From a virus, in IMG/VR virus record IMGVR_UViG_3300033144_002296, positions 1 through 35,653 of that record: a DNA stretch of 35,653 nucleotides; one strand, 5' to 3'. The translations under genes and the position numbers were made by a program. Every line of letters begins with the position of its first letter. Positions within the stretch are counted from its first letter, which is position 1. The notes below the pieces were generated by a model. That model worked only from the letters and a program-made list of their open reading frames with translations. It was not told the DNA's origin and ran no database searches. Shown piece after piece: positions 3,148 through 32,100 of this stretch.

Positions 3148-3459
3148 ATGTCAATATTAAGTGATGTCAAAGTAGGTGGAGTATATACTCTAAAGATAAA
3201 CAGTGGTGAAGAGATTGTATCAAAAGTTGTAGAAGTAGAAGATGATACACTTGTTTTAGAAGATCCAGTATCAATTGCCCCTAGCCCACAAGGTATGGGA
3301 CTTGTTCCTAGTGTGTTTACTGCAAATGCCAAGAAAAACGTAAGACTAAATACTACTAGTGTTTCTCTTGTTGCTGAAACAGCAGACGAAGTTAAAGACA
3401 AATACAGAGAGGCGACCACCGGAGTAACTGTACCGGAGAAAAAAATATTAGTAGGATAA
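3148..3459 (+). CDS. Small beta-barrel (Sm/SH3-like) phage protein, function unknown
   Basis: A 103-residue protein behind a good AGGAGA site, 11 bases after the glutaredoxin gene. The first 70 residues read as short alternating beta strands (VGGVYTLKINSGEEIVSKVV, DTLVLEDPVSI) that resemble an Sm- or SH3-like small barrel. The C-terminal 30 residues are charged and probably flexible. There is no signal peptide or membrane segment. It lies between the nucleotide-reduction genes and tail genes and could belong to either. The fold is read by eye and the function is not known. Confidence 0.75.
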   Translation: MSILSDVKVGGVYTLKINSGEEIVSKVVEVEDDTLVLEDPVSIAPSPQGMGLVPSVFTANAKKNVRLNTTSVSLVAETADEVKDKYREATTGVTVPEKKILVG

Positions 3460-28430: not shown

Positions 28431-29033
28431 ATGTCTCATTTCTTTACAGCAGACTTGCATTTTGGTCACAATAATGTGATCAACTTCACTAATCCGGATG
28501 GCACAAGATGTCGTCCGTACGATACCGTGCAGGATATGGAAGATGCTATGATTCAAATGCATAATGAGATTGTAAAGCCCACAGATAAAGTCTACATGCT
28601 AGGCGATATTGCTTTCAACAACAGAGGACTTGAGAAAGTCAAGCAAATGAATGGCATCAAAATACTTGTCAAGGGCAATCACGACCAATTGAAGTTGAAC
28701 AAGTACGTTGATGTATTCAAAGATGTCCGAGGATGTCATGTAACTAACGGTTTAGTGTTTACACATATTCCAATACATGTTGATCAGTTAGGCAGATTTG
28801 GGTGCAACGTACACGGTCACTTACATGGTGGTAGAGTTAAGCAAGGTGATCAAATTGATCCTAGGTTCTTGTGTGTCTCTGTTGAGCATACTGACTTAAA
28901 GCCTATTTCTTTTGAAGATATGGTTGATAGAATAGTAGCACAAGGTGGAAAAATGGGCATGATAGATGGGAACGGACCACAGAACGAGAAAAAAGTTCAG
29001 GCTACCCAAAATGCTTTATTTAACTCACACTAG
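28431..29033 (+). CDS. Calcineurin-like metallophosphoesterase
   Basis: A 200-residue protein with the full metal-ligand set: TADLHFGH (D8, H10), LGDIAF (D59), GNHD (83-85), FTHIPIH, and HGHLHGG. It is a cytoplasmic phosphoesterase of the kind found in marine T4-like phages. An AAAGGA site and a consensus sigma70 promoter precede it, so it is probably early. Substrates could be nucleotides or phosphorylated ends; not determined. Confidence 0.93.
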   Translation: MSHFFTADLHFGHNNVINFTNPDGTRCRPYDTVQDMEDAMIQMHNEIVKPTDKVYMLGDIAFNNRGLEKVKQMNGIKILVKGNHDQLKLNKYVDVFKDVRGCHVTNGLVFTHIPIHVDQLGRFGCNVHGHLHGGRVKQGDQIDPRFLCVSVEHTDLKPISFEDMVDRIVAQGGKMGMIDGNGPQNEKKVQATQNALFNSH

Positions 29034-29050
29034 GTTATATAATATCACAC

Positions 29051-29175
29051 ATGACACAAAACGTTAAATTGCTATCTATTGCTAAGGGTTGTGTCAAACA
29101 ATTTGAGTCTCGTCAGGCGCCCGCTGAAGGGCTAGGTAAGTCTTAAGATTTACACTGTTTGAGACTCTCTTTTTT
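29051..29175 (+). ncRNA. Candidate structured RNA with intrinsic terminator
   Basis: A TATAAT box at 29038-29043 would start transcription at about 29050. The following 125 bases fold neatly: TGACACAA (29052-29059) pairs with TTGTGTCA (29089-29096); GAGTCTC (29105-29111) pairs with GAGACTC (29161-29167) and encloses two hairpins, GCCC/GGGC (29119-29132) and GTAAGTC/GATTTAC (29136-29153); six T residues end the unit. A 31-codon ORF (29051-29146, no ribosome binding site) covers part of it, so a small coding gene is the alternative. Confidence 0.5.
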
Positions 29176-29184
29176 AAGGAATAA

Positions 29185-29328
29185 ATGGAAGCAGTAAAAG
29201 AATCAAAGCCAACGCAAAAAGGTAGATTTTGGTGTCATATCAGAAAGGACTTTTATAGTTGGGACGAACTCATCGCATATTACAGAATGTGCGATTTAAT
29301 TGAAAAACAAAATCAAAGAAAGGGCTAA
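29185..29328 (+). CDS. Small protein, 47 residues, function unknown
   Basis: ATG 29185 has a TAAGGA site just before. The product starts MEAVKESKPTQKGRFWCHIR and has an aromatic, basic middle (FWCHIRKDFYSWDELIAYYR). It is followed 2 bases after its stop by the next gene. No domain is recognised; the ribosome binding site and tight spacing support it. Confidence 0.6.
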   Translation: MEAVKESKPTQKGRFWCHIRKDFYSWDELIAYYRMCDLIEKQNQRKG

Positions 29329-29330
29329 TT

Positions 29331-29645
29331 ATGACAATAATGACTCCGGATCAAAATTGGACTGATGAAGAATGGAACAGTTTTAGATCACAAGTGAAAG
29401 ATGTACTCGTTAAGGATATTGTAGAAGTTACTTTTACAAAAATCAACGGCGATGAACGTGTAATGACATGCACACTACATCCTGACAATTTACCGAAGCC
29501 AGTTATCAAAGAAGGCGAAGACAAGAAAGAAAGGGTAATTAAGAATCCTGAAAATAGTCTTGCTGTTTTTGATATGAAGGCAGAAGGTTGGAGAAGTTTT
29601 GTAATAAGGAATATCAAATCAGTCAATACAAGCCCGCGCCTGTAA
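29331..29645 (+). CDS. WYL_2-like (Sm/SH3 fold) phage protein
   Basis: A 104-residue protein. VEVTFTKINGDERVMTCTL, LP near residue 54, and a C-terminal VFDMKAEGWRSFVIRNI match the pattern of the phage WYL_2 family (small Sm-like SH3 beta barrel), which I recall as PF10902. These proteins have no settled function. The last 10 bases of the gene form the 5' acceptor strand of tRNA-Arg, so tRNA processing would cut the message at its end. Confidence 0.75.
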   Translation: MTIMTPDQNWTDEEWNSFRSQVKDVLVKDIVEVTFTKINGDERVMTCTLHPDNLPKPVIKEGEDKKERVIKNPENSLAVFDMKAEGWRSFVIRNIKSVNTSPRL

Positions 29646-29712
29646 CTCAGTTGGATAGAGTACCTGGCTACGAACCAGGAAGTCGGAGGTTCGAATCCTT
29701 CCAGGCGCGCCA
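29636..29712 (+). tRNA. tRNA-Arg (anticodon ACG), CCA encoded
   Basis: A 77-base cloverleaf. The acceptor GCGCCTG pairs with CAGGCGC, the anticodon loop CTACGAA holds ACG (needs inosine editing to read CGC/CGA), the T arm is GGAGG-TTCGAAT-CCTTC (one G-U), and GCCA ends it. Confidence 0.95.
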
Positions 29713-29800
29713 AGTTCAATCAACGTAAGGAAACAAAACCAGGAAGTCGGAGGTTCGAATCCTTCCAGGCGCGCCAAGTTCAATCAACGTAAGGAAACAA
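29673..29800. repeat. Tandem 64-base direct duplication including the tRNA-Arg 3' half
   Basis: Bases 29673-29736 are repeated exactly at 29737-29800. Each unit holds the tRNA-Arg sequence from the anticodon 3' strand to CCA plus 24 bases of spacer. The second unit is a tRNA 3' half with no 5' half, so it cannot fold to a tRNA. Confidence 0.95.
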
Positions 29801-29809
29801 AAAGTTTAA

Positions 29810-29885: not shown

Positions 29886-29889
29886 GTTT

Positions 29890-29958
29890 GGGGTACGGCT
29901 AGAACAACACTAGCCTCAACCGGATGCTTGAGACATGCAAATCCTGTCACTCTGCCCC
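29890..29958 (+). ncRNA. tRNA-like four-way-junction RNA of unknown type
   Basis: Lies between two tRNA genes and folds into a cloverleaf shape without being a normal tRNA: GGGGTA/TGCCCC closes it; GGCTAG/CTAGCC has loop AACAACA; TCAA/TTGA has an 8-base loop; GACA/TGTC has a T-loop-like TGCAAATCC. The D-loop GG, a 7-base anticodon loop, a variable region and 3' CCA are missing. It may be a decayed tRNA or a distinct small RNA. Confidence 0.45.
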
Positions 29959-29969
29959 TCCCCATAAAT

Positions 29970-30399: not shown

Positions 30400-31345
30400 A
30401 AATGTGTAGGTCCAAAAAGTAGAACATATTGATATTACCAAATTAGATTTAACAGACTACGTTGACTCATTAAAGAACACATCTTTCTCGTCCAGAGAAA
30501 TTTACAATGCTTGCCAAATCTATAAAGATATGATAGATGATCCTGACTGTACAATCATCTTAACGATTGCAGGATCAACGCAAGCCGCAGGTTGTCTTCA
30601 ACTATATAGAGACCTAGTCAAATATAAAATGGTTGACATTATAGTTGCAACTGGTGCTAGTGTTATTGATATGGATTTGTATGAAGCCCTAGGCTTTCAT
30701 CATTATATCGGCACATCAAAAGTTGATGACAATGAACTAAGGGAACAGGGCATTGATAGAATCTATGACACTTATATCTATGAAGAAGACTTAAAGAAAG
30801 TTGATCAATATATTTGTGACATTGCAACTGATTATGGTGAACCCAAGCCACAAAGTTCTAGTGAATTCTTGCATCTATTAGGAGAAAAAACTCCAAACAG
30901 TTTAGTAAATGAATGTTACAAAGCAGATGTACCTATCTTTTGTCCTGCTCTAAATGATAGTGCCGCAGGGTTCGGTCTATTAAAACATAAAGTTGAAAAC
31001 GAACGCCATGTTATTATAGATAGTGTACAAGACTTAAAAGAATTGACAGAATTAAAGATTAACGCAAATAGTACAGGTCTGTTTATGATTGGTGGAGGCG
31101 TTCCAAAAAACTTTGCACAAGATATCGTAGTAGCGGCAGAAATGTTAGGGCATGACGTTCCGTTGCACAAATATGCTATACAGTTTACAGTAGCAGATGT
31201 AAGAGACGGTGCATGTAGCAGTAGTACATTAGACGAAGCAAACAGTTGGGGCAAGGTTAGTGATCAAGCAACACAAATGGTATATGGAGAAGCAAGTAGC
31301 ATTTTACCAATTGTCGCAAATTATGCATACGTTAATAAAAAATGA
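30396..31345 (+). CDS. Deoxyhypusine synthase-family protein (likely homospermidine synthase) with apparent -1 frameshift
   Basis: The long frame encodes the NAD-dependent deoxyhypusine synthase fold: LTIAGSTQAAG, VATGASVIDMD, FCPALNDSAAGFG and LDEANSWGKVS, whose Lys is the catalytic lysine. Family similarity starts at KVEHIDI (about base 30416), before any normal start codon in that frame; the first in-frame ATG (30530) would remove 35-40 conserved residues. An ATG at 30396 (ATGA overlap with the previous gene) reads MKMCRSKK then stops at TAG 30420. A -1 shift on CAAAAAG at 30413-30419 would join both. Bacteria lack the eIF5A substrate; bacterial homologues such as cyanobacterial SpeY make homospermidine, and the neighbours are polyamine genes. 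Confidence 0.85.
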
Positions 31346-32100
31346 ATTTCTTAGGTGTTGAATCTTATTCATATGAGGACTGTAATGTTCTCATAGTACC
31401 ATATGGAACTGAAGAAAACATATCCTATGGTTCTGGTACCTTATATGGTCCTCAAGCAATTATACATGCAAGTCAAGAGGTAGAATTATATCCATACCCT
31501 GAGCATTTAAAAATACATACTTTGTCTAAGACAAACAATCTTAGTCAAACTATTAAACAAGCAAAAGCAGACGGTAAGTTTGTAATGACATTAGGTGGAG
31601 ATCATAGTCTAACATCACATGCATATCAACATTACAATACAGATATTGTACAGTTTGATGCTCATTGTGATTTAAGAGATAGTTATTTAGGTAACCCACA
31701 GAGTCATGCTTGTGCAATGCGTAGATGTATGGAACTAAATGAAGATACTCATCTTTATAGTTTTGGTATACGCAACATGAGTAAAAGTGAACATGAATAT
31801 ATTAAAGAAAACAAACATAGAATACATAGAGACATTACACCACAAGGAAAGGAATTATATCTAACGTTTGATGTTGATGCATTCGATGTGTCAATTATGC
31901 CTGCAACAGGGACTCCAGAACCGGGAGGATTGTTATGGGAAGAAACGATAGAATTAATTAAGACAATTTGTTATCAAAACAAAATTGTAGCAGTAGACAT
32001 AGTTGAACTGGCTCCAATCAAAAATATGCCAGCATATGATTTTGTAGTTGCTAAACTGTGCTATATTATTTTAAAAGAAACAACTAAAAACAAAAGGTAA
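31342..32100 (+). CDS. speB: Agmatinase/arginase-family ureohydrolase
   Basis: A 252-residue manganese enzyme. All six metal ligands are visible: H88 (GGDHS), D106, H108 and D110 (FDAHCD), D177 and D179 (FDVDAFD). The context of deoxyhypusine synthase-like and SpeD genes favours agmatinase (agmatine to putrescine plus urea) over arginase. It is somewhat shorter than E. coli SpeB (about 306), mainly at the N-terminus. Its ATG overlaps the previous stop (ATGA), and speD follows after 4 bases. The gene symbol reflects the family and context, not a proven substrate. Confidence 0.88.
   Translation: MNFLGVESYSYEDCNVLIVPYGTEENISYGSGTLYGPQAIIHASQEVELYPYPEHLKIHTLSKTNNLSQTIKQAKADGKFVMTLGGDHSLTSHAYQHYNTDIVQFDAHCDLRDSYLGNPQSHACAMRRCMELNEDTHLYSFGIRNMSKSEHEYIKENKHRIHRDITPQGKELYLTFDVDAFDVSIMPATGTPEPGGLLWEETIELIKTICYQNKIVAVDIVELAPIKNMPAYDFVVAKLCYIILKETTKNKR

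Follow-up and report, generated by a model that had tools for sequence, protein, structure and literature searches.

The put element of phage HK022 is an RNA located near the 5′ end of its transcript, and no phage protein may be needed for its action. Phage T4 encodes the small stable RNAs C and D (species 1 and 2), for which we know of no function. Other structured phage RNAs include the manA, wcaG and PhotoRC-II motifs of marine T4-like phages or cyanophages (Weinberg 2010; PMC2864571), and the RNA anti-CRISPRs (Racrs), reported to be phage-encoded small RNAs directed against a host machine (PMC10651486). Here we consider a candidate small RNA from a 35,653-nt stretch of viral DNA, the whole of which is referred to below as the window. 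A literature search that reached parts of the relevant texts (PMC2864571, PMC12197685) returned no description of the 5′ hairpin of this RNA, which we call the head.

The window RNA and its close relatives

The candidate lies between a phosphoesterase gene and a 47-aa ORF, and its parts are as follows (positions in the window; + marks the strand where assigned).

28431–29033: phosphoesterase gene (PHROG 547), 5′ neighbour of the RNA
29038–29043, +: −10 box TATAAT; the best −35 at the correct spacing is weak (TTTATT, 3 of 6 positions)
29051–29146, +: ORF of 31 codons, judged not to be a gene; no Shine-Dalgarno sequence
29052–29059, +: 5′ strand of the head stem, TGACACAA (fold and covariation)
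29062–29063, +: conserved loop CG, 2 nt 5′ of the core, not imposed by the scan
29066–29084, +: conserved core, AAATTGCTA-TCT-ATTGCTA, with two A[T/C]TGCTA copies at a 10-nt period
29086, +: conserved G, 2 nt 3′ of the core, linked to the CG among scan sites
29089–29096, +: 3′ strand of the head stem, TTGTGTCA, forming 8 bp with 29052–29059 (fold and covariation)
29105–29167, +: clade-specific three-way-junction domain, closed by a stem of terminator type
29105–29112/29160–29167, +: closing stem of this 3′ domain (computed fold)
29119–29122/29129–29132 and 29136–29142/29147–29153, +: inner hairpins of the junction (computed fold)
29170–29175, +: T-run TTTTTT, an intrinsic-terminator-like end (from the sequence)
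29185–29328: 47-aa ORF, 3′ neighbour of the RNA

A first-pass annotation had described a −10 box, a 5′ stem at the predicted transcript start and a multi-branch domain with two inner hairpins, a closing stem and six T residues, next to a tRNA cluster. Each of these was recovered here: the head stem begins 8 nt past the −10 box, at the expected transcript start, the junction and its hairpins appear in the computed fold ahead of the six T residues, and the first tRNA follows about 460 nt downstream, at 29636. The folding comparison that the annotation had proposed also came out in its favour, with the whole stretch (−39.0 kcal/mol, z = −3.46) matched by 0 of 200 shuffles. By itself, the 3′ domain gave z = −3.78 (0 of 200 shuffles as good) and the 53-nt head region z = −2.19 (8 of 200 as good). 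A perfect TATAAT occupies the same place in five relatives (L003, L004, L006, L007 and L008).

Close relatives were sought with the phosphoesterase protein, which led to 43 loci. Eight of these (L001–L008) carry the RNA; in the other 35, the covariance model R1 (introduced below) gave no believable match. The surroundings of the RNA vary, with a 653-codon ORF inserted between the phosphoesterase gene and the RNA in L007, and the 47-aa gene absent 3′ of the RNA in L004, L007 and L008. In the window's own clade, a short ORF begins about 10 nt past the T-run. The 3′ domains of the window and L001–L007 adopt related junction-plus-terminator folds, the outer stem being re-paired by different letters in L004 and L007, and a conserved strand of this domain was found in the window's clade only (6 loci). 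L008 keeps only the 5′ hairpin, and a plain terminator-like hairpin replaces the 3′ domain.

A covariance analysis had been suggested as a further check, and compensatory pair changes are indeed present in these relatives and, massively, across the wider family described below. The proposal of a self-contained small RNA is therefore supported at the level of sequence, compensatory stem changes being present and the 31-codon ORF not being kept. We consider it about an even call that roughly 29050–29175 would constitute a phage small RNA gene of about 125 nt with its own putative −10 box and terminator. Beyond what the first reading could see, the 5′ hairpin is a module in its own right with a wide distribution, and the 3′ domain was found in the window's own clade alone.

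Several other features of this part of the window were recorded. Two genes downstream of the RNA (29331–29645) lies a gene for a WYL_2/Sm-like SH3 protein (PF10902), and a protein similar to it by eye is encoded near the element in L103. Genes for a deoxyhypusine synthase (PF01916) and an arginase-family protein (PF00491) adjoin at 30530–32100. A tRNA-like sequence between tRNA-Arg(TCT) and tRNA-Trp (29889–29965), left unnamed by ARAGORN and Rfam, is 94–100% identical in four of the eight relatives (L002–L005). Positions 29673–29802 form a tandem duplication of period 64, in which the 3′ half of tRNA-Arg(ACG) and a spacer are repeated exactly, giving a 66-nt identical run.

The head module across phages

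The first hairpin carries a nearly invariant 16-letter core that is found in dozens of unrelated uncultured phages, usually as a single copy per viral sequence and within stems that differ in sequence yet keep their pairing. Its loop, CG-N(1-2)-AAAUUGCUA-NNN-AUUGCUA-NG, recurs in unrelated phage contigs, and the head as a whole spans 29–30 nt in which the letters CG-N(1-2)-AAAYUGCUA-NNN-AYUGCUA-NG hardly vary, set on a stem whose sequence is free. When AAATTGCTANNNATTGCTA was the only pattern sought in IMG/VR, at least 119 stretches were obtained; among the matches listed, 117 had enough flank, with 64 distinct core sites, a count made without hand selection. CG was present in 37 of the 64 distinct sites listed, at −3 (23) or −4 (14), compared with about 10 expected. 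The G at +2 accompanied 35 of the 37 CG-bearing sites versus 5 of the 27 without CG, again among the matches listed, and in the same matches a stem score of at least 5 was reached by 23 of 37 CG sites (4.7% with swapped 3′ flanks) and by 1 of 27 sites without CG. These counts in the sites listed identify the CG, the +2 G and the free-sequence stem as a package that the scan had not requested. L008 is a family member on the side without CG. A list of 45 distinct sites remained after 42 loci had been taken out by hand because they were judged to be coding, to lack a stem or to be chance matches; two of the grounds for removal (no CG, no stem) are features that were later counted, and the gene-list, promoter and T-run counts given below use representatives of this hand-filtered list. 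The pattern GTTTGAGACTCTCTTTTTT returned 24 loci, none beyond the 19-nt match except one short piece.

Loci not chosen by the core came from three neighbour-protein searches, which gave 9, 80 and 12 loci. R1 was run on 98 of these 101 and matched 26, and the exact core is present too in the three on which it was not run (L211, L255 and L258). By group, the element occurs in 9 of 9, 8 of 80 and 12 of 12 loci, with a patchy presence in the T4-like group and a steady one elsewhere. Because the query proteins had been taken from element-bearing loci, the first and last groups overlap in part with the contigs considered before. The 12 loci found by neighbour protein that all keep the element (L289–L300) show a single kind of core change, in which C replaces the first U either in repeat 1 (L291, L292 and L300) or in repeat 2 (L293–L296 and L298). 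In L123 and L094, a long stem closes a larger structure that includes the head as one of its arms. On this comparison of sequences, the head is under strong constraint.

Stem covariation was measured in two alignments. In A2, whose 21 sequences were chosen for pairing in one register and from which R1 was built, pairing was 91.8% versus 45.8% after shuffling, and all seven pairs had changed on both sides. In A8, which comprises 55 sources fitted to R1, pairing was 91.6% versus 41.8%, all seven stem pairs covary, and the covariation score was 1.099 compared with 0.207 for shuffled sequences and at most 0.266 for slid controls; 54 of its 55 sequences have the +2 G. A further pair was detected inside the head, between the first nucleotide after the CG and the first after the core. 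Where one nucleotide separates CG and core, the two can pair in 25 of 28 cases (A-U 14, U-A 7, G-U 2, U-G 2), a value reached by 0 of 2,000 shuffles; where two nucleotides separate them, pairing (15 of 26; shuffle mean 13.3) gave no signal. An inner hairpin of UUGCUA/UUGCUA with two U-U mismatches would fit the symmetric U-to-C changes, as tandem binding sites might.

The element appears to be single-copy. One strong match per record was found in 44 of 44 viral records (15.7–200.7 kb, some possibly incomplete), with a weak second match, lacking the core, in G041. The exact core plus CG occurs at 7 loci in 84,980 bacterial species genomes, one match each and in no array; only two of the seven (L192 and L193) are convincing, each of them a viral contig within a genome bin. 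R1 searches of bacterial classes, with stricter filters and part of the candidates scored, gave 1 of 190 and 0 of 185, the single match being the genome bin that holds L193. BLAST of the element regions of the window, L071, L152 (two lengths) and L129 against named phages gave no recognisable core match among the matches listed, a search of 10 named phage records with R1 turned up nothing credible (its best T4 match lies inside gene 23), and the neighbour proteins of two groups had no relative in the named-phage set. The nearest relatives of the window's ribonucleotide reductase beta subunit are from Xanthomonas and Stenotrophomonas phages (62% and 55%). Permuted tmRNA genes of the alphaproteobacterial type are present in L150 (10311–10687), L070 (9036–9354) and L125 (700–1056), close to the element in the first two, which suggests alphaproteobacterial hosts for some of these phages. 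The phages bearing the head comprise T4-like and other phages and are apparently largely aquatic.

Possible modes of action

Transcription signals were counted around the element. A −10 box matching at least 5 of 6 positions was found in 25 of 43 loci versus 27% at random, and together with a −35 of at least 4 of 6 in 13 of 43 versus 7.7% in the control. T-runs within 45 nt occur on the sense side in 19 of 45 loci and on the opposite side in 1 of 45, compared with 10.7% at random. L082 is a complete minimal unit (TTGACA, TATAAT, hairpin and T7). The full set of promoter and terminator is thus present in L082, the window has a −10 box, a T-run and a weak −35, and many members miss one of these parts.

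The reading that we favour, over one in which the element acts in cis, is a small, autonomous phage RNA that would bind a host component in trans through its folded head; we give this function about half of our belief. No protein family was common to more than 7 of the 22 phage groups (records may be incomplete), and letters that are nearly frozen across phages lacking a common detectable protein point to a conserved partner in the hosts. The head would be folded rather than merely open, as the covarying inner pair of one class suggests, and would be the working part that docks onto the host component, for which an RNA-binding protein or a factor in transcription, translation or RNA decay is the likeliest candidate. 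During infection, the phage RNA might occupy or redirect this partner, with the stem, terminator and extra domains serving as exchangeable scaffolding that would start, end and stabilise the transcript. That the RNA stays while its neighbours change (L004, L007 and L008) speaks for action in trans; against it are the many members without a clear promoter, the weak −35 of the window and the missing inner pair of the second class. More tentatively, the folded tandem-UUGCUA head may define a new RNA class in which it would serve as a general key to a single conserved host machine, making the RNA an agent of host takeover or counter-defence. Identifying the partner would open a route to understanding host takeover by poorly studied phages, a new Rfam family could annotate many viral contigs, and the alignment is informative enough for designing direct tests.

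A cis-acting leader or terminator is possible, if somewhat doubtful. The head, at an mRNA 5′ end or on a terminator, would then decide whether transcription runs on into the next gene once RNA polymerase, a host factor or a ligand had bound it, as an attenuator or an antiterminator resembling HK022 put. In many loci the stem begins 1–11 nt past the −10 box and 40–60 nt further on comes an ORF that has a Shine-Dalgarno-like sequence, T-runs lie directly 3′ of the stem, and the short ORF just past the T-run in the window's clade fits the same arrangement. In the 12-locus group, the element always lies about 50 nt 5′ of the same 85-aa gene, with a Shine-Dalgarno-like stretch, a leader-like placement that also counts against action in trans. 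However, downstream genes vary between groups and are constant only inside a clade, the gene list for L129, L150, L125 and L170 has no same-strand ORF start within about 180 nt, and loss or exchange of the downstream gene leaves the RNA in place.

We consider it improbable that the two AYUGCUA repeats are open seeds of an antisense RNA or sponge that pairs with UAGCARU in host or phage RNAs. The repeats are identical and their sole changes, U to C, keep pairing with G, but in an exploratory count over the phage contigs examined TAGCAAT/TAGCAGT showed no consistent excess, and no further tandem site was found. Observed/expected values for target sites were about 2 for the window, higher in some short loci and about 1 in most long contigs (the L162 row is invalid). 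No conserved tandem complement was found on either strand of the 84,980 bacterial species genomes, and the covariation inside the head argues for a fold.

Less probable by far is a DNA-level site, in which a regulator or initiator would recognise the direct repeats, phased at 10 bp, in double-stranded DNA: the repeat period and single copy would suit it, but stem covariation, one-sided T-runs and promoter placement all track the RNA strand. Almost no credence attaches to the conserved feature being the 31-codon ORF itself. An overlapping short ORF lacking a ribosome binding site had been noted as an alternative and does exist; its frame is open in three of nine sequences (the window, L002 and L005), but its ATG is kept in only four (those three and L001) and lost in five, its frame is broken in L001, it has no Shine-Dalgarno sequence and its product has no PHROG match. 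A coding ORF was rejected as not conserved over the nine sequences. The annotation had named codon-biased change in the ORF, without compensation in the RNA, as evidence against its proposal, and the reverse was found.

Comparison with known RNAs

None of 4,227 Rfam models matched the element at a permissive threshold in the window, L082, L123 or L129: across 451 nt of the window there was one sub-threshold match, located elsewhere, and the element regions of the other three gave chance-level matches only. At the gathering threshold, Rfam 15 identified only tRNAs in the window and nothing on the element in 28 further loci. A tRNA or tmRNA was rejected, as neither ARAGORN nor Rfam matches the element, and a metabolite-sensing riboswitch leader was rejected because the downstream ORFs belong to no single functional class between groups. 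The abiF RNA (RF03085) is likewise a small RNA found in phage contigs, and in L089 its model matches not the element but positions 3180–3211, where two tRNAs adjoin and the element core lies some 440 nt away.

Racrs mimic host CRISPR repeats; no array of repeats with the core plus CG was found among the 84,980 bacterial species genomes scanned, and Racr identity was rejected. The head resembles HK022 put in lying near the 5′ end of a predicted transcript, but kinship was rejected, R1 finding nothing in HK022 and the core with two mismatches occurring at chance level. T4 RNAs C and D, small stable RNAs of a T4-like phage, likewise lie beside tRNA genes, and here too kinship was rejected (cmsearch of R1 against AF158101, 70908–71171; 0 matches at E up to 10). 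With the manA, wcaG and PhotoRC-II motifs the element shares being a structured phage RNA, and their Rfam models miss it. Phage small RNAs are a known kind and this one, which as an RNA family matches nothing tested, looks like a real RNA gene belonging to a widespread and apparently previously undescribed class of phage RNA.
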